Shown here: one piece after another, positions 4,467 to 53,393 of the stretch
Numbering within the stretch: position 1 is the first letter of the stretch
Layout: each line of letters starts with the position of its first letter
Source: Rubrivivax sp.
GTDB taxonomy: Bacteria; Pseudomonadota; Gammaproteobacteria; Burkholderiales; Burkholderiaceae_C
DNA length: 56,359 nucleotides
Assembly: GCA_026785885.1 (NCBI GenBank)
Contig: JAJAZC010000041.1
Coordinates: 1-56,359 of the forward strand
Direction of reading: 5' to 3'
Position numbers and translations under genes: made by a program
The notes under the pieces: generated by a model
The model's input: the letters and a program-made list of their open reading frames with translations, nothing else
What the model was told of the DNA's origin: nothing
Databases searched by the model: none

Positions 4467-5737
4467 GCGCGCGCCAAGCCGGCCGGAGTTCTGCCACGGC
4501 GCCGTACCGAGCCGCCGATGCCTTCGATCTCGAGCGCATCCGCGCGGACTTTCCGATCCTGCGTCAGCAGGTCCACGGCAAGCCGCTCGTCTACCTGGAC
4601 AACGCTGCCTCCAGTCAGATGCCGCAGCCGGTGATCGATCGCCTGGTGCATTACCAGTCGGCTCAGCACGCCAACATCCACCGCGGGGTGCACACGCTGT
4701 CGGCGCTGGCGACAGCCGAGTACGAGGCGGCGCGGTGCAAGCTGCAAAAGTTCCTGAATGCCGCCGAAGCGCGCGAAGTGATCTTCACCAGCGGCACCAC
4801 CGACGCGATCAACCTGGTGATGCACGGCTACGGCCGCAAGTTCATCCGCGCCGGCGACGAGATCATCCTGACGACGCTGGAGCACCACGCCAACATCGTG
4901 CCGTGGCAGATGCTGGCGGAAGAAACCGGCGCGAAGATCCGCGTGGTGCCGATGATGGACACCGGCGAACTGTGCCTGGACTCGTACGAAAAGTTGTTCA
5001 ACGCGCGCACCCGCATCGTCGGCGTGACCCATGTCTCCAACGCTCTCGGCAGCATCAATCCGGTCAAGTTGATGATCGCGCTGGCGCATGCGCACGGGGT
5101 GCCGGTGCTGGTCGATGGTGCGCAAGCCGTGCCGCACATGCCCGTGGATGTGCAGGACCTGGACTGCGACTTCTATGCGTTCTCGGGGCACAAGCTGTGC
5201 GGTCCGACCGGCATCGGCGTGTTGTACGGCAAGGCGAAGTGGCTGGAGTCGATGCAGCCGTTCAAGGGCGGCGGCGACATGATCCTGTCGGTGTCGTTCG
5301 AGCGTACCGTCTACAACACGATTCCGCAGAAGTTCGAGGCCGGCACGCCGCCGATTGCCGCCGCCATCGGGCTGGGCGCCGCGGTTGACTACCTCAGCAC
5401 GATCGGCCTGGCGGCGATCGCCCGGCATGAGCACGAGCTGCTGCAGCACGCCACCGAGCGGCTGCGCGCACTGCCCGGCGTGCGGCTCGTCGGCACGGCG
5501 CGCCACAAGGCGGCGGTGTTGTCGTTCGTGCTCGACGGCGTGCACCCGCACGACGTGGGAACCCTGCTCGACCAGGAGGGCATCGCGGTGCGCACCGGCC
5601 ACCACTGCGCGCAACCGGTGATGACACGCCTTAACCTTGCCGCCACCGTGCGGGCCTCGTTCGCGTTCTATAACAGCCACGCCGAGGTGGACGCGCTGGT
5701 CGCCGGTGTGCGGGCCGTGCAGGAGGTCTTTGCATGA
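4463..5737 (+). CDS. sufS: SufS, cysteine desulfurase
   Basis: This 424-residue PLP enzyme takes sulfur from cysteine as a persulfide and releases alanine. The PLP lysine is Lys244 in FSGHKLCGPTG. The persulfide-forming cysteine is Cys382 in RTGHHCAQPVM, the short-loop arrangement of class II (SufS) desulfurases. The cofactor histidine lies in LEHHANIVPW. The ATG at 4463 overlaps the sufD stop; the frame is open further upstream but only over sufD. The next gene encodes SufU, the expected sulfur acceptor. Confidence 0.96.
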   Translation: MSARQAGRSSATAPYRAADAFDLERIRADFPILRQQVHGKPLVYLDNAASSQMPQPVIDRLVHYQSAQHANIHRGVHTLSALATAEYEAARCKLQKFLNAAEAREVIFTSGTTDAINLVMHGYGRKFIRAGDEIILTTLEHHANIVPWQMLAEETGAKIRVVPMMDTGELCLDSYEKLFNARTRIVGVTHVSNALGSINPVKLMIALAHAHGVPVLVDGAQAVPHMPVDVQDLDCDFYAFSGHKLCGPTGIGVLYGKAKWLESMQPFKGGGDMILSVSFERTVYNTIPQKFEAGTPPIAAAIGLGAAVDYLSTIGLAAIARHEHELLQHATERLRALPGVRLVGTARHKAAVLSFVLDGVHPHDVGTLLDQEGIAVRTGHHCAQPVMTRLNLAATVRASFAFYNSHAEVDALVAGVRAVQEVFA

Positions 5738-6860: not shown

Positions 6861-7421
6861 ATGCCGAAGATTGCAGAGATAGACGACACGCCCAATCCGA
6901 ACGCGGTGAAGTTCACGCTGCATCAACCGCTGACCTGGGGCATCTCGCGTTCTTTCGAGAACGCCGAACAGGCCGAGGGCGACGCGCTCGCGTCGGCGCT
7001 GTTCGCGATCGAGCACGTCAGCAACGTGTTCTACGTCGACCGCTGGCTCACCGTGACGCAGGACGGCGACGCCGATTGGCCGGATCTGGTGCGGCTGATC
7101 GCCGTGCCGCTTCGTGCCGCCCCGGCTGCCGCCGCGCAATCAGCCGCCACGGTGATTGCAGCCCGTGCATCGATCGCCGATCTGAGCGAACGAGACCAGG
7201 CGCGCCTCGAAGTCATCTGCGACCTGCTCGACGCGCGCATCCGGCCTTCGCTCAAAGCCGACGGCGGTGACCTGGACATCGTCGGGTTGGCCGGCGACGA
7301 ACTCAGCATCCACTACCAGGGGGCCTGCGGCAGTTGCCCGAGTTCGATTTCCGGCACGCTGAGTGCCATCGAGAACCTGGTGCGCACGATCGAGCCGAAC
7401 ATCGTCGTCGTCGCCGTGTAG
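6861..7421 (+). CDS. Nfu-type Fe-S carrier, copy 1 (Nfu_N + NifU C-terminal domain)
   Basis: This 186-residue protein has an Nfu N-terminal domain (about residues 1-85, starting with the family-typical TPNPNAVKF), an alanine-rich linker, and a NifU C-terminal domain (about 110-186). The cluster-binding CxxC is Cys156/Cys159 in GACGSCPSS. The start at 6861 has a good AGGAGG box a few bases before it. Such proteins accept [4Fe-4S] clusters from the scaffold and hand them to targets. A second, distinct Nfu protein follows after apbC. Confidence 0.92.
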   Translation: MPKIAEIDDTPNPNAVKFTLHQPLTWGISRSFENAEQAEGDALASALFAIEHVSNVFYVDRWLTVTQDGDADWPDLVRLIAVPLRAAPAAAAQSAATVIAARASIADLSERDQARLEVICDLLDARIRPSLKADGGDLDIVGLAGDELSIHYQGACGSCPSSISGTLSAIENLVRTIEPNIVVVAV

Positions 7422-35947: not shown

Positions 35948-37315
35948 ATGACCGAAAGAAAAGACTTCACCTTCAGCGATCTCGAGCAATGGCTCGATCG
36001 CAACCGCGTGACTGAGATCGAATGCCTGGTGCCCGACCTGACCGGTGTGGCGCGCGGCAAGATACTGCCGCGGCAAAAGTTCAACGTCGACCGCGGCATG
36101 CGGCTGCCCGAAGCGGTGGTGGCCATGGGCGTGACTGGCGAGTTTCCGGAAGAAGGGCCTTACTACGACGTCATCCGCTCGACCGACCGCGACATGCACT
36201 TGCGGCCCGACCCCACCACCGTGCGCATCGTGCCCTGGGCTGCCGACCCCACCGCGCAGGTCATCCACGATTGCTACGACCGCGACGGTCTGCTGGTGCC
36301 TTTTGCGCCCCGTAGCGTGTTGCGCCATGTGTGCGACCTGTATGCCGCGCGTGGCTGGACGCCGGTGGTGGCGCCGGAGCTGGAGTTCTATCTGGTGGCC
36401 CGCAACACCGACCCGGACGTGCCGCTGAAGCCGCCGGTGGGCCGCAGCGGCCGCAGCGAAACCAGCCGCCAGGCCTACAGCATCGACGCCGTCAACGAGT
36501 TCGACCCGCTGTTCGAGGATGTCTACGACTACTGCGAGAAGATGGAGTTGAACGTCGACACGCTGATCCACGAAGTGGGCGCAGGGCAGATGGAGATCAA
36601 CTTCTTCCACGCCCACCCCCTGGGGCTGGCCGACGAGGTTTTTCTGTTCAAGCGCACGGTGCGTGAAGCGGCTTTGCGCCACGACATGTTTGCCACCTTC
36701 ATGGCCAAGCCGATTGCCGGTGAACCGGGCAGCGCGATGCACGTGCACCAGAGCCTGCTCGACACAGCCACCGGCCTGAACCTCTTCAGCAACGAAGACG
36801 GCACGCCGAGCCAGGAGTTCCACTGGTACATCGGCGGGCTGCAGAAGTACGTGCCGGCGGCCATGGCGCTGTTTGCGCCCTACGTCAACAGCTACCGCCG
36901 CCTGGTACGCAGCAACGCCGCGCCGATCAACATTCAGTGGGGCACGGACAACCGCACGGTCGGCATCCGCAGCCCGCTGGCCGACGCGGCTTCACGGCGC
37001 GTCGAAAACCGCGTCATCGGTGCTGACGCCAACCCGTACGTCGCGCTGGCTGCCACGCTGGCTTGCGGCTACCTGGGCATCGTCAACCGCATCGAGCCGA
37101 GCCCGGAATGCATGGGCGACGCCTACCTCGGCGACTTTCAGTTGCCGCGCAGCCTGGGTGAAGCCTTGGCCCTGCTGCGCACCGAAGCCGACTTGGCCAG
37201 CGTGCTGGGCAAAGACTTCATCACCGTCTACACCGAGATCAAGGAGATCGAGTACGCGGAGTTCATGAAGGTCATCTCGCCGTGGGAGCGCGAGCACCTG
37301 CTTTTGCATGTTTAG
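35948..37315 (+). CDS. puuA: Gamma-glutamylputrescine synthetase (glutamine-synthetase family)
   Basis: This 455-residue ligase belongs to the PuuA branch of glutamine synthetases and joins glutamate to putrescine. Seen are VPDLTGVARGKILP, APELEFYLV with metal glutamates, EVGAGQMEINF, the ATP/metal histidine region GSAMHVHQSL, and RVENRVIGADANPYVALA. The ATG at 35948 gives the standard start; the open frame extends further upstream without homology. Its TAG stop forms the first bases of the palindromic element described at 37313. Confidence 0.92.
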   Translation: MTERKDFTFSDLEQWLDRNRVTEIECLVPDLTGVARGKILPRQKFNVDRGMRLPEAVVAMGVTGEFPEEGPYYDVIRSTDRDMHLRPDPTTVRIVPWAADPTAQVIHDCYDRDGLLVPFAPRSVLRHVCDLYAARGWTPVVAPELEFYLVARNTDPDVPLKPPVGRSGRSETSRQAYSIDAVNEFDPLFEDVYDYCEKMELNVDTLIHEVGAGQMEINFFHAHPLGLADEVFLFKRTVREAALRHDMFATFMAKPIAGEPGSAMHVHQSLLDTATGLNLFSNEDGTPSQEFHWYIGGLQKYVPAAMALFAPYVNSYRRLVRSNAAPINIQWGTDNRTVGIRSPLADAASRRVENRVIGADANPYVALAATLACGYLGIVNRIEPSPECMGDAYLGDFQLPRSLGEALALLRTEADLASVLGKDFITVYTEIKEIEYAEFMKVISPWEREHLLLHV

Positions 37316-37477
37316 TGCAGTGTTCGACACTGTGTGGAACATAAAACCACGTCTCGTGCTCCCAGGCGTCGTTGCAAATCCGCGCGATGCAAAAGAGCAT
37401 CGCTGTGGTTTGCGCCTAGCCAGGCAGCCCGATCCATCGGTTTCCTTAAGTTCCATACAGCATCGAACACTGCACTA
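37313..37477 (+). repeat. Palindromic element copy 1 (about 165 bp)
   Basis: The element starts at the TAG stop of puuA and ends 11 bp before spuC. Its ends are a perfect 15-bp inverted repeat (TAGTGCAGTGTTCGA and its complement), and the complementarity goes on imperfectly for about 28 bp and further inward. The centre (37371-37417) is a 47-nt core that starts GTTGCAAATCC and ends TTTGCGCCT, enclosing a small CGATGC/GCATCG hairpin. The same 47-nt core is found at 38929 and 53179. No open frame is present. Confidence 0.8.
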
Positions 37478-37488
37478 GACAACCGACC

Positions 37489-38871
37489 ATGACGTTTCGC
37501 ACCACCGCCGAGCTGCAGGCCGCCGACACCGCCCACTTCCTGCACCCCTTCACCGACCACCAGGGCCTGGCCCGCAAAGGCGCGCGCATCATTCGCCGCG
37601 CCGACAACATCTACCTGTGGGACAGCGAAGGCCACAAGATCCTCGACGCAATGAGTGGCCTGTGGTGCGTCAACGTCGGCTACGGCCAACAGGCGCTGGT
37701 GGACGCGGCGGCGCAGCAAATGCAGCAGCTGCCCTTCTACAACGCGTTTTTCCAGACCGCCACCGAGCCCGCAATCGAGCTGGCCGAGGTGCTGGCTGAG
37801 ATCACGCCACCGCAGTTTCAGCACGTTTTCTTCAGTGGCAGCGGCAGCGAAGGCAACGACACCGTCGTGCGCATGGTGCGGCGCTACTGGGACTTGGCTG
37901 GCCAGCCCGATCGGCAGATCATCATCAGCCGCGACAACGCATACCACGGCAGCACGATGGCCGGTGCATCGCTGGGCGGCATGGCCGGCATGCACGCGCA
38001 AGGCGGGCTGCCGATTCCCGGCATCGTGCACATCGGCCAGCCGCACTGGTGGGAGCTGGGCCGGCCGCAGGGTCTGAGCCGCGAGGCCTTCGGCCTGCAG
38101 GCCGCGCAGTGGCTGGAAGACCGCATCCAGGCCCTCGGTGCGCACCGCGTTGCGGCTTTCATCGGCGAGCCGATTCAAGGTGCCGGTGGCGTGATCATTC
38201 CGCCGTCCACCTACTGGCCTGCGGTGCAGCGCATCTGTCAACGTCACGGCATCCTGCTGGTCAGCGATGAGGTCATTTGCGGCTTCGGCCGTACAGGCAA
38301 TTGGTGGGGCTGCCAGACGCTGGGCTACGCGCCCGATCTGATGACGTTTGCCAAGGGTGTGACCAGCGGCTACGTGCCGCTGGGCGGCGTGATGGTCGCT
38401 GAGCGCGTGGCGCGGGTGCTGATCGAGGGCGGCGAGTTCAACCACGGCTACACCTACAGCGGCCACCCGGTGGCATGTGCGGTGGCGCTGGCCAACATCG
38501 CGCTGATCCGGCGCCTGCAGCTGGTGGAGCACGTGCGCGACGACGTCGGCCCCTACCTGGCCGCCGCCTGGCGCGATATGGCCCAGCACCCGCTGGTCGG
38601 GGACGCCGAGAGCTGCGGCTTGATGGGCGCGCTGCAGCTCGTGAAGGACAAGCAAAGCGGCGCTGCATTCGACCCCGCCGTGGCCATTGGCATGGTCTGC
38701 CGCGGGCACTGCTTTGCGCAGGGCATCGTGATGCGCGCGGTGGGCGACCGCATGATCGTTGCGCCGCCGCTGGTCATCACACGCGCGCAGATCGACGAGA
38801 TGGTGGCGCTGATCCGCCGTTGTCTGGATCTGACACTGGCCGACGCCCAGGCCGGCGGCTGGCTGCACTAA
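37489..38871 (+). CDS. spuC: Putrescine-pyruvate aminotransferase
   Basis: This 460-residue class III PLP aminotransferase matches SpuC: HPFTDHQGLARKGARII, MSGLWCVNVGYG, RDNAYHGSTMAGASLGGM, LVSDEVICGFGRTGNWWG, TFAKGVTSGYVPLGGV with the PLP lysine, and GGEFNHGYTYSGHPVA. It converts putrescine to 4-aminobutanal, a route parallel to PuuA. It is flanked on both sides by copies of a palindromic element, so it may be transcribed apart from puuA and pot genes. Confidence 0.92.
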   Translation: MTFRTTAELQAADTAHFLHPFTDHQGLARKGARIIRRADNIYLWDSEGHKILDAMSGLWCVNVGYGQQALVDAAAQQMQQLPFYNAFFQTATEPAIELAEVLAEITPPQFQHVFFSGSGSEGNDTVVRMVRRYWDLAGQPDRQIIISRDNAYHGSTMAGASLGGMAGMHAQGGLPIPGIVHIGQPHWWELGRPQGLSREAFGLQAAQWLEDRIQALGAHRVAAFIGEPIQGAGGVIIPPSTYWPAVQRICQRHGILLVSDEVICGFGRTGNWWGCQTLGYAPDLMTFAKGVTSGYVPLGGVMVAERVARVLIEGGEFNHGYTYSGHPVACAVALANIALIRRLQLVEHVRDDVGPYLAAAWRDMAQHPLVGDAESCGLMGALQLVKDKQSGAAFDPAVAIGMVCRGHCFAQGIVMRAVGDRMIVAPPLVITRAQIDEMVALIRRCLDLTLADAQAGGWLH

Positions 38872-39034
38872 AAGCCTGAGCGTCTTTCGCGCATGCCTGC
38901 TCATCACGCCCAAAGGCGCGCGCTCGTCGTTGCAAATCCTCTCCACAGCCCGAGCCATGGCTGTGCTTTGCGCCTAAATCGGGCGCCTTTGGACGCGCTG
39001 CTCGGGCAGGCCCGAAAAACTCCCAGGCTCTGAC
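38869..39034 (+). repeat. Palindromic element copy 2 (about 165 bp)
   Basis: This copy begins at the TAA stop of spuC and ends about 20 bp before potG. The 47-nt core is at 38929-38975 (GTTGCAAATCC to TTTGCGCCT), with an inner hairpin ACAGCC/GGCTGT whose sequence differs from copy 1 but pairs equally well. The arms (AGCCTG to CAGGCT at the tips, CCAAAGGCGC to GCGCCTTTGG near the core) are self-complementary but unlike those of copies 1 and 3, and less perfect. The outer limits are set by the arm lengths of the other copies. Confidence 0.7.
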
Positions 39035-50639: not shown

Positions 50640-51383
50640 TCAGTGCCGGCCGAACAGCCGCGCGTCCCAGATGACTGACTCGGTGCGCCCGGCGACGATC
50701 AGGCGTATGTCCGGGTGCTGTGGGTTGATCAGCACGTTGCCCTCCCGGCGCGCAACGACCGAGGGCACCACCAGCACCGCCGACCGGCGCTCGCCAATCC
50801 AGGTGTCGCCGAAGGCCCGCGCCACGCGCAAATCCGCCTGATCCCACCCGGGCGGCAGCGTGGCTTCGGTCTGGTACTCCACGTTGGTGGCGCGCGGTTG
50901 GCCCACGAAGGGCGTGCCCAGCGTGATGACGCAGCGGGCGTTGGCCGGCTGCTCCTTGGCCAACTCGCGCGCGTAAATGCCGCCCAGGCTCCAGCCAATC
51001 AGGCTCACCGCTTCGCCGTGGCGCTGCGCGATTTGTTTGAACAGCGCACGGCAATGGTCCAGCACGCCGCGCCGCGGGCCGAAGTTGAAGCCCTGCTGCC
51101 ACGCATACGGCGTGTAGCCGCGCTGGCGCAGAAAGCGACGCAGCGGCACGGTGGTCAGGTCTGCAGCGCCCAGGCCAGGGAACACGATCACCGGGTGGCC
51201 GTCACCGACGGGCAGGCGGTTGAGCCACGGCCTGGCGGCCAGCATCGCGGCGTATTCCAAGGGCGCGCGCGCTTCCATCAACAAGCGCAGCGGGCCCGGG
51301 GCGCTGACCCGCACCTGGGCATCGGACGCGGTCGCAGGCGCGGGCGCTGGCGCGGGGCGGCGGCGGCGTGTCAGGAAACTCAT
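50640..51383 (-). CDS. Alpha/beta hydrolase (esterase/lipase-like)
   Basis: Counting from the ATG at 51383, 247 residues form an alpha/beta hydrolase. VIVFPGLGAADLTTVPLRRF is followed by the nucleophile elbow LIGWSLGGIYAREL (GxSxG), and there is a further region CVITLGTPFVGQPRATNV. The frame is continuous with the wax ester synthase C-terminus upstream, joined by a low-complexity linker. It is therefore either a separate gene without a clear ribosome site or the second half of a fused protein. Lipase-like action on neutral lipids is inferred from the neighbour. Confidence 0.82.
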   Translation of the reverse strand: MSFLTRRRRPAPAPAPATASDAQVRVSAPGPLRLLMEARAPLEYAAMLAARPWLNRLPVGDGHPVIVFPGLGAADLTTVPLRRFLRQRGYTPYAWQQGFNFGPRRGVLDHCRALFKQIAQRHGEAVSLIGWSLGGIYARELAKEQPANARCVITLGTPFVGQPRATNVEYQTEATLPPGWDQADLRVARAFGDTWIGERRSAVLVVPSVVARREGNVLINPQHPDIRLIVAGRTESVIWDARLFGRH

Positions 51384-51562
51384 GGGCCGATTGTCGATTG
51401 CCTGTCGTCGGCGCGTCGGCGCGTCGTCGCGTCGGCGCGTCGGCGTGTCGGCCGTCAGCCGCCAGACCCGCTTGCGGACGCGTGCCGGGGCGGCTGCCTT
51501 GACAGCCACGGCGGCCGGGGCGGCCTTCAGGGCGGCCGCAACATCGCCTTGTGATGCACTCT

Positions 51563-51610
51563 GCAGCGGCAGCGGCAGCGGCAGCGGCAGCGGCAGCGGC
51601 AGCGGCAGCG
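51563..51610. repeat. Hexanucleotide microsatellite (CAGCGG)n
   Basis: About eight tandem copies of CAGCGG, read on the minus strand as alternating Leu-Pro codons, lie between the wax ester synthase and hydrolase parts. Because the unit is 6 bp, copy-number change alters only linker length. A second GCGTCG-rich repeat tract (about 51411-51455) encodes Thr-Arg-Arg-Arg stretches nearby. Confidence 0.85.
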
Positions 51611-52189
51611 CGCGAAGTTCGTCGAAAGCGGTGTGCAGCGCCTGGGCCAGTTCGGCCACGTCGGGCATGGCTGCAGCGTCGGCCATGAGGCCGAAATCCA
51701 GGCTGCGGTCGTAGCTCTGCACGGTGATGTTCAATGCCAGGCCGTGCACGACTATCAAAGCCGGGTAGTTGGTGATCATCCGGGCGCCGGCCATGTACAG
51801 CGGCACCGGCGGGCCGGGCAGGTTGCTGATGACGAGGTTGGCGAGCTGCGGCAGGCGGTCGGCCACACGCGCTTTGCCGTACAACACGGTGGCCGCCTCC
51901 ATCAACCACGGCATGCCCGGCGACGGAAAGCCCGTGGGCAGGATGCTCTTGAGGCTGCCCATCGTCGTCTTCATCGACGCGGTGGCGGTCTTGACATGGG
52001 CCAGGCGCCGGCCGACGTAGCCGATGTGTGTGCCCAGGCTGATCAGGCTCATGCTGGCATGGCTACCTTTGGCCGAATCGGCGCTAATGTTGCCCTTGTC
52101 GCGCAGCGAGATCGGCACCGCGGCTAGCAGGCTCTGGCGCGGCAACGTGCGGCGCTTGGCGCGGTCGCCGTAGTACAGGCGCAGCGCGC

Positions 52190-52259
52190 TGCTGCACAAC
52201 ATCAGCACCATGTCGTTGATGCTGTGCTGCACAACATCAGCACCATGTCGTTGATGCTG
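52190..52259. repeat. Perfect 35-bp tandem duplication inside the wax ester synthase gene
   Basis: Bases 52190-52224 and 52225-52259 are identical. Since 35 is not a multiple of three, the second copy shifts the reading frame of the gene that crosses it. The duplicated segment encodes INDMVLMLC; the duplication of this peptide run in two frames is visible in translation. Confidence 0.95.
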
Positions 52260-53117
52260 GCATCGTGCGCGCGGCCCAGCGCTTTGATGTCATTGAGCGG
52301 CAGCGTGGCGGTGGCAAAGGCGCGGCCTTCGGTGACCGACACGTTCAGCGGCGTGCACGGCGCCAGGCTCCCATTGCCGCTTCCCTTGTTGCCGGTAACC
52401 AGCGACGAGGTACTGACAAGCCCTGAAGCCGAGATCCTCAACGTACCCACCGTGCCGGGCAGCTGGCGCACGATGTGGGCGACCTGCTGCGCCTGGTTGC
52501 CGAGCACACCGCGCAACATCTCGGCCATGCCCAGCCGGAAGGTGCGCGGACGGGTCGACGACACGGCCGCAACGGCGCGCGGTTCGGGCGACAAGTCGAG
52601 GATCGCGTTGGCCAGTGTGACCGCCGCCTGGCTGTCGACGGCCGCGTGGTGCAACTGCGTGTCCAGCGCAGCAAGCTTGCGTCCATCGGGTGACGGCGCC
52701 AGACATTCGAAGACGTGGAACTTCAACAGCGGCCTTTTGCGATCCAGCAGCACCGGGTGCAATCGCGACACCGCAGCCTGCAGCTCGGGCAGGCCGGCGG
52801 TTTGGCCAGCTTGATCTCGACGATGTGCTGCGCAAGATCGGGCTCGGCATCGACCCAGGCCGGGTTGGCCGGGTTCAGCGGCATCCACCACAGCCGGCGG
52901 CGCAGCACCGGCGCCACTGGCAGGCGGGTGCGCATGTGCTCGCGCAGCGCGTTGACGAAGCGGCCCCTGGCGCCCGCCGGCATTTCGAAGACATGCAGCG
53001 CGCCGACGTGCATCGGCATCTGCGGTGTTTCCAAAAACAGAAACGTTGCGTCCAGGCTGGGCAGTTGTCGCATGCGGACTCCGCCAACGGCGCACTGCCG
53101 GGCTCGGCGATGCCGGC

Positions 53118-53283
53118 TAGTCCACTGAATCACTGAAATTGGGTCGGTGCTGTCCGCGCAAAACGGGCGCGCTGCGGCGTTGCGAATGCGTGCGGTGCCT
53201 ATGGGCATCGCTGTGCCTTGCGCCTTGCATCGCATCCCGTCTTGCGCGTCCTTCACCGCCCATTTCAATGATTCAGTGGACTA
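53118..53283 (+). repeat. Palindromic element copy 3 (166 bp)
   Basis: The ends are a perfect 15-bp inverted repeat (TAGTCCACTGAATCA and its complement), and nearly the whole arms pair (TGAAAT...GGG...CGGTG...CGCGCAA...ACGGG against the other side). The 47-nt core is at 53179-53225, beginning GTTGCGAATGC and ending CTTGCGCCT, with an inner GGTGCC/GGGCATC hairpin. The tips TAGTCCACTG resemble TAGTGCAGTG of copy 1. CTAG flanks both sides. It lies between the wax ester synthase start and the end of a transporter gene. Confidence 0.8.
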
Positions 53284-53393
53284 GGGGCAGGTCTGCAGAG
53301 CCGGCCCGGGGCTCACCCTAGGCGGCTGACCCGCGAGCTCGCCCCGGCGTTGGCGTCAAGCTGCCGACCAGCTTGGCCGGCCCCCTGCTCAGC

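Follow-up and report, generated by a model that had tools for sequence, protein, structure and literature searches.

Three palindromic elements in the Rubrivivax window

The window analysed here, the whole stretch of 56,359 nucleotides of contig JAJAZC010000041.1 from Rubrivivax sp. (assembly GCA_026785885.1), contains three gene-less palindromic elements of about 159 bp each, which lie inside short target sites (Table 1). Copies 1 and 2 sit within a polyamine gene cluster, with a glutamine-synthetase-like gene upstream (puuA-like; its match to the gamma-glutamylputrescine synthetase model stays below the cut-off), an aminotransferase gene in the middle (spuC-like, exceeding the cut-off of PRK07480) and a polyamine transporter ATPase gene as the third, which exceeds the potA cut-off. 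Next to copy 3, a wax-ester-synthase-like protein seems to be split at positions 50640-53095 between two frames of the minus strand that overlap (52202-53095 and 50640-52232); in its C-terminal part, the second frame also matches a RES-type toxin model, and all matches of the split frames are below the cut-offs. The elements are probably miniature inverted-repeat transposable elements (MITEs) which are moved in trans by IS5-type DDE transposases of insertion sequences (ISs) and keep one folded internal module.

A first-pass annotation, made from the sequence alone, had described three copies of about 165 bp with a shared core. The copies proved to be real, and all three cores match the pattern GTTGCRAATSC-N27-YTTGCGCCT exactly and on the plus strand, compared to a chance expectation of 0.07 per window with up to three mismatches allowed; three matches occurred in none of 100 shuffled sequences. 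The annotated core length of exactly 47 nt holds within the window, but not for the whole family, whose listed cores are 44 to 47 nt long (with the final T left off). The described position of two copies directly at the stop codons of the puuA-like and spuC-like genes was likewise correct.

Table 1. Elements, cores and target copies in the window. Element and target bounds were derived from the target-site offset analysis and the window DNA, by which the annotated bounds were refined; R1 is the covariance model described below.
Feature	Position	Strand	Remarks
Copy 1, element	37316..37474	- (better-folding strand)	Arm cluster C3; between puuA-like and spuC-like genes; R1 77.0 bits, 2e-17
Copy 1, core (47 nt)	37371..37417	+ (as first read)	Exact pattern match
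Copy 1, left target copy	37312..37315		TTAG; includes the puuA-like stop codon TAG
Copy 1, right target copy	37475..37478		CTAG; differs from left TTAG
Copy 2, element	38872..39030	-	Arm cluster C1; spuC-like gene on one side, polyamine ABC transporter ATPase gene on the other; R1 68.3 bits, 3.3e-15
Copy 2, core	38929..38975	+	Exact pattern match
Copy 2, left target copy (3 bp)	38869..38871		TAA; the spuC-like stop codon
Copy 2, right target copy (3 bp)	39031..39033		TGA; TNA type, unlike left
Copy 3, element (L010)	53121..53280	-	Upstream of split wax-ester-synthase-like reading frame; R1 69.1 bits, 2.1e-15
Copy 3, core	53179..53225	+	Exact pattern match
Copy 3, left target copy	53117..53120		CTAG
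Copy 3, right target copy	53281..53284		CTAG; identical to left, the only identical pair of the three

Copy number and spread

The exact core pattern occurs in 28 copies in the genome to which the window belongs; a looser pattern yielded 29 matches, one of which is a chance match, and an additional copy without the exact pattern was found by similarity (G000:C6:49492-49658). Among 299 genomes of the same family, 138 contain the core pattern, with the highest counts of 225 and 143 copies in genomes G271 and G025, respectively, and a reversed-pattern control gave no match in the same 299 genomes. A scan of named genomes yielded at least 120 stretches; the 80 matches listed belonged mainly to Burkholderiales, among them the environmental strain Acidovorax sp. 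Leaf191, together with some metagenome-assembled genomes (MAGs) labelled as other phyla, where a few of the copies lie at contig ends. Five such copies in contigs labelled as Bacteroidetes, Saprospiraceae or Chlamydiae MAGs (L079, L094, L138, L123 and L077), several of them with AT-rich arms, may represent either binning errors or transfer. In a phylum-wide draw of 398 genomes, 14 matched the exact core, and those forming a hairpin were restricted to the order of the window. The cores of six genomes outside the order form no hairpin and were taken as chance matches, as was one of the eight matches in genome G327, and the reversed control gave one match in this draw (G535).

Carriage by phages was considered and rejected, as one 81-nt query gave no match in a phage collection; 12 viral contigs contain the core pattern, one of them (L407) with two copies at 4786-4831 and 7219-7264. 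Plasmid searches were sparse, yielding 0, 1, 5 and 9 records, with one of the nine being a weak match within a gene.

Target sites and shared ends

For the analysis of the flanks and arms, the copies were assigned to arm clusters (see below), among them C1, C2 and C3. The target-site offsets were optimised on a grid and the shuffles ran at the chosen offsets only; on this basis, 23 of 42 copies of cluster C2 are flanked by identical 4-bp target copies, mostly of the type YTAR, versus nine in the best of 1000 shuffles. In cluster C1, the excess is modest, with identical target copies in 48 of 90 cases (45 of them TGA) versus 42 in the best shuffle. We then compared the element ends with those of 116 transposase loci retrieved by the Pfam models PF01609, PF13340, PF13586 and PF05598. 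At 15 of these loci, both terminal repeats match element ends in 31-35 of 36 positions, with up to 40 candidate repeat pairs per locus and a threshold fixed after viewing the distribution (bulk at 24-30), and the best of 300 random 18-mers reached 15 of 18 positions. The matching IS end types are GGCAACGCTGAACA, GGCCTGTTAACACT, GGAACCTCTGCAC-like, GAACCTGTTCAAAATCT-like and CAGCCTGTCGGACTT, and G025, with its 143 copies, possesses an own IS with GGCAACGCTGAACA ends, like many of its elements. The partner loci may be of the IS5 type; we take the family name and its YTAR and TNA target rules to apply to them, and the IS type of about 1.5 kb at L184 and L188 may fall outside IS5. A few candidate partner loci for the C1 and C3 ends (29-31 of 36 positions) look like chance and were rejected, and a 31-nt query with one C1 end against plasmids returned eight records at E-values of 2-7.

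The elements thus resemble MITEs in size (with about 159 bp, they are too short for a transposase gene and within the usual range of about 50-500 bp), terminal repeats, target duplication, the lack of a gene and ends shared with ISs. Given the target duplications of C2 and the IS-shared ends, the interpretation that fits them best is that of MITEs mobilised in trans. The mobile palindromic unit proposed by the first-pass annotation is supported by copy number, target duplications, shared ends and the homologous puuA-spuC junction: in 15 congeners having this region, no match covers the element (five junctions printed). Further insertions were seen at L014 and L020, where a C3-type element is inserted at CTAG beside the core of another element. 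Together with L021, these represent family-into-family insertions at a core-edge CTAG in two places, L020 and L021 being the same place. At L023, a copy is broken right after the core (at about 1546, minus strand) by another palindromic insert.

Fold and covariation

Folded as read, the three copies are more stable than shuffled sequences, with z-scores of -11.5, -3.9 and -9.1 for copies 1, 2 and 3, respectively. Two chance matches (L024 and L047) were removed before arm clustering and gene-context analysis, and the left arms of the 209 copies fell into 29 clusters by single linkage at 58% identity. Using one representative per cluster, the duplex of a left arm with its own right arm has a mean energy of -58.9 kcal/mol, compared to -28.6 kcal/mol with arms of other clusters.

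Covariation was assessed on 35 dissimilar copies with an arm identity under 62%, which were picked by the exact core pattern and had 46-nt cores only (35 of 37 listed, leaving out L023 and L125). In this alignment, standard pairs account for 84.6% versus 61.3% in shuffled controls, 337 cells are changed on both sides of a pair versus 130, and the covariation score is 0.560 versus 0.167 after shuffling and 0.118-0.146 after sliding. RNAalifold predicted 31 pairs, in agreement with the aligned structure. One pair of the core varies among 210 copies, being G:C in 100, C:G in 87 and A:T in 10, and the stretches GGCGC and GCAAC are invariant across the 35 aligned copies. Read on the minus strand, the module consists of CAAGGCGC, an inner helix and GCAACGC, with fixed internal loops. 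The annotated pairing of arms within copies is thus confirmed, and the arms differ between families. The first-pass annotation would have reduced the copies to chance palindromes if further copies or covarying arms were lacking; this condition does not apply, as there are many further copies with covarying arms.

Two of the 209 copies (L243 and L261) have cores which turned symmetric, and a third such core is listed, from G271. The arm cluster of copy 3 has only one other member in the set, L050, whose left arm resembles that of copy 3 while its right arm reads as cluster C3, so that it looks like an arm chimera.

Preference for one strand

The minus strand, which is the reverse complement of the strand read in the first-pass annotation, folds better. 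It is the more stable one in 28 of 29 clusters with RNA parameters and in 26 of 29 with DNA parameters, and the difference is located in the arms (26 of 29 clusters), not in the core (13 of 29). Among isolated arm mismatches in the minus-strand reading, counted with one representative per cluster, G·U prevails over A·C (70 versus 18) and G·A over C·U (39 versus 11); the numbers of G·G versus C·C (19 and 12) and A·A versus U·U (7 and 4) do not differ significantly. Counted by cluster, an excess of G·U is found in 21 cases and an excess of A·C in four, with four ties (p 0.0009). Recent changes within families gave mixed support, new wobble states prevailing by 28 versus 5 in G025 and 11 versus 2 in G000, but only by 16 versus 12 in G271. 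Both G·U and G·A occur frequently as non-canonical pairs in folded RNAs, and their excess is therefore read as selection on the folded minus strand. A mutational cause of the asymmetry was rejected, as recent substitutions are inconsistent between families and deamination does not account for the surplus of G·A relative to C·U. The core strand runs with the replication fork in 35 of 54 cases (p 0.04), which we treat as weak; this count covers the listed places of six genomes and assumes the origin at the record start. A folded single strand, either RNA or single-stranded DNA (ssDNA), seems to be under selection, the two not being separable from the present sequence data. The structured RNA considered by the first-pass annotation thus stays plausible, though rather on the strand opposite to the one it had read.

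A strand-specific hairpin with conserved mismatches is also what would be expected of elements like the repetitive extragenic palindromes (REPs), moved by RAYT (Y1) transposases which read a folded single strand, and a Y1_Tnp match is present in 222 of the 299 genomes. However, we rejected this explanation, which we regard as very improbable, because copy-rich G025 has no Y1_Tnp match. In addition, the target duplications are DDE-like, and the core lacks a constant neighbouring tag, with variable bases at the three preceding positions.

Relatives elsewhere in the class

The first-pass annotation had proposed to search with a covariance model, and we built model R1 from the core and 26 nt per arm, using 35 copies including copy 3 and others from the genome of the window; the matches in this genome are thus partly by construction, and the E-values are rough. 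R1 recovered all three window copies on the minus strand (E-values of 2e-17 to 3.3e-15). At a threshold of E <= 0.001, it found matches in 47 of the 185 class genomes, with at least 21 matches in one genome, these counts being lower bounds from at most 22 scored candidates per genome under strict filters. According to the kinship column, 45 of the 47 genomes are outside the order of the window. The common motif across the class is CAAGGCGC...GCAACGC. Of 18 class-wide matches, 17 fold more stably on the strand of the model, but these matches were themselves selected with a model built for the favoured strand. At 7 of 19 class-wide loci, a second match lies on the opposite strand a few bases off. 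This resembles the forked elements noticed by eye in Burkholderiales (L071, L087, L059, L156, L164, L128, L146 and L053) and also at L416 and L433, which measure some 260 bp and contain two oppositely oriented core hairpins.

Neither the window nor 14 class-wide loci gave an Rfam match at gathering score, and a lax limit gave only matches far under the gathering scores. We found no description of the element family in the open-access literature (the scope of our search, outside of which subscription papers and preprints lie), in agreement with the first-pass annotation, which did not recognise it as a named family.

Gene context

The context of 192 copies was determined by a simple heuristic for open reading frames (ORFs) instead of annotation, leaving out rows L371-L376, L381 and L265-L280. 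Copies occur in every gene arrangement, and 27 are located within ORFs. Gene 3' ends facing an element are within 10 nt of it in 81 of 162 cases, versus 15 of 158 for 5' ends, which would fit a host cis-regulatory RNA, such as a terminator or attenuator, kept for regulating its neighbours. However, TGA targets of C1 are also found in divergent and intragenic copies, and the closeness of C1 to gene 3' ends is due to its TGA target. More generally, most of the stop-codon adjacency is explained by stop codons falling in TNA or YTAR targets, together with selection against gene disruption. In the 84 tandem contexts, the core strand runs along the genes in 54 cases, where the better-folding strand is accordingly antisense, and against them in 30 (p 0.012); the homologous junction of 15 congeners does without the element. 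An attenuator, terminator or host riboregulator was rejected on context and orientation, so we assign this explanation almost no probability, and the strong attenuator within one pathway, as suggested in the first-pass annotation, was not borne out.

Proposed mechanism and counter-evidence

In the proposed mechanism, the outer ~18 bp of the arms would serve as recognition sites for DDE transposases, and transposition would duplicate a target of 4 bp (YTAR) or 3 bp (TNA). The folded module would work as a single strand, either RNA or ssDNA, to which some factor would bind, and arm complementarity would be kept by selection together with hairpin-templated copying. Through such copying, a new end might also be carried over to the opposite arm, which would shift the module between transposase lineages; the symmetrised cores of L243 and L261 support template copying. 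A published study (PMC8794818) argues that RNA hairpins can arise and persist by template switching, which can also account for asymmetric base-pair frequencies.

This published argument, as well as the symmetrised cores in G271, which resemble palindrome correction, would equally suit plain MITE families, in which the core is an ancestral internal sequence without function and template switching keeps correcting the palindrome. We consider this unlikely: correction would be expected to remove loops with mismatches, but the 35 dissimilar copies, picked by their exact core, all retain GGCGC and GCAAC. The motif also recurs in model-found copies elsewhere in the class, and symmetric correction would not be expected to make G·U outnumber A·C and G·A outnumber C·U.

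Several observations weigh against MITEs moved in trans with a selected module. Target duplications of cluster C3 (9 of 34) are not above those of the shuffles (best 12), and 1.81 Mb of loci yielded no autonomous partner whose ends are fully of the C1 or C3 type, so the moving enzyme of window copies 1 and 2 is inferred. Movement of all clusters by IS5-type transposases is likewise an inference. The congener junctions are those of relatives with about 80% identity and not clean pre-insertion sites. Own-arm duplexes exceed the first percentile of foreign-arm duplexes in only 62% of the clusters, and non-wobble mismatches make up 92 of 180 isolated arm mismatches. Recent changes in G271 are barely wobble-biased (16 versus 12). 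Both-side changes affect 31 of 39 pairs, little more than the shuffled mean of 27.4, and the case for covariation therefore rests on the other measures. Finally, arm exchange rests on the single chimera L050.

A broader version is conceivable, which we put forward tentatively and would not expect to hold in full: that class-wide mobile, folded single-strand modules captured the ends of many unrelated ISs, with the conserved strand, not the DNA duplex, having the function by which the module goes on spreading, and palindromic template copying swapping the transposases.

Relation to known elements

Integron attC sites carry GTTRRRY/RYYYAAC boxes at their ends and depend on an integrase; the elements described here have conserved boxes near the apex, not at the ends. 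ERIC and Correia/NEMIS elements have arms that are constant among copies. They occur in other taxa than our elements and were set apart by description. ERIC and Correia/NEMIS are likewise short mobile repeats with RNA folds, the effect of ERIC being orientation-dependent, and the pneumococcal RUP also has ends resembling an IS (IS630-Spn1) and is supposed to move in trans; however, RUP is tied to this one IS, whereas about five end types of our elements have a matching IS (PMC2229807). In the available text of PMC10969869, the MITEs reviewed include no case of one folded core under the ends of several different ISs, as found here, and its main text contains no word beginning with 'Burkholder'. 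The GTAG and CGTC REPs are likewise palindromic, and the latter are perhaps moved by a broad spectrum of transposases, but they measure 20-40 bp and have tagged ends (PMC3733652), unlike our elements of about 159 bp with IS-like ends and variable bases before the core. The Tn3-derived TIMEs are also non-autonomous with ends common to a transposon family, but differ in belonging to a single family, with 38-bp ends and a length of 262 bp (PMC4133298). The hupL and dsrA MITEs of Thiomargarita, compared by description, are similarly high-copy hairpin elements with no known parent IS and come from a member of the wider group, but show 10-bp or TATAG direct repeats (PMC4853749).

Implications

Bacterial MITEs are usually viewed as decayed copies of one insertion sequence. 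The presence of one folded module under about five kinds of IS ends in many genomes suggests a parasite that exploits several transposases and whose folded strand is under selection. This makes it testable what a gene-less element gains from its internal structure and how such elements switch their transposase. In practical terms, as many as about two hundred copies in a genome could be named and masked.

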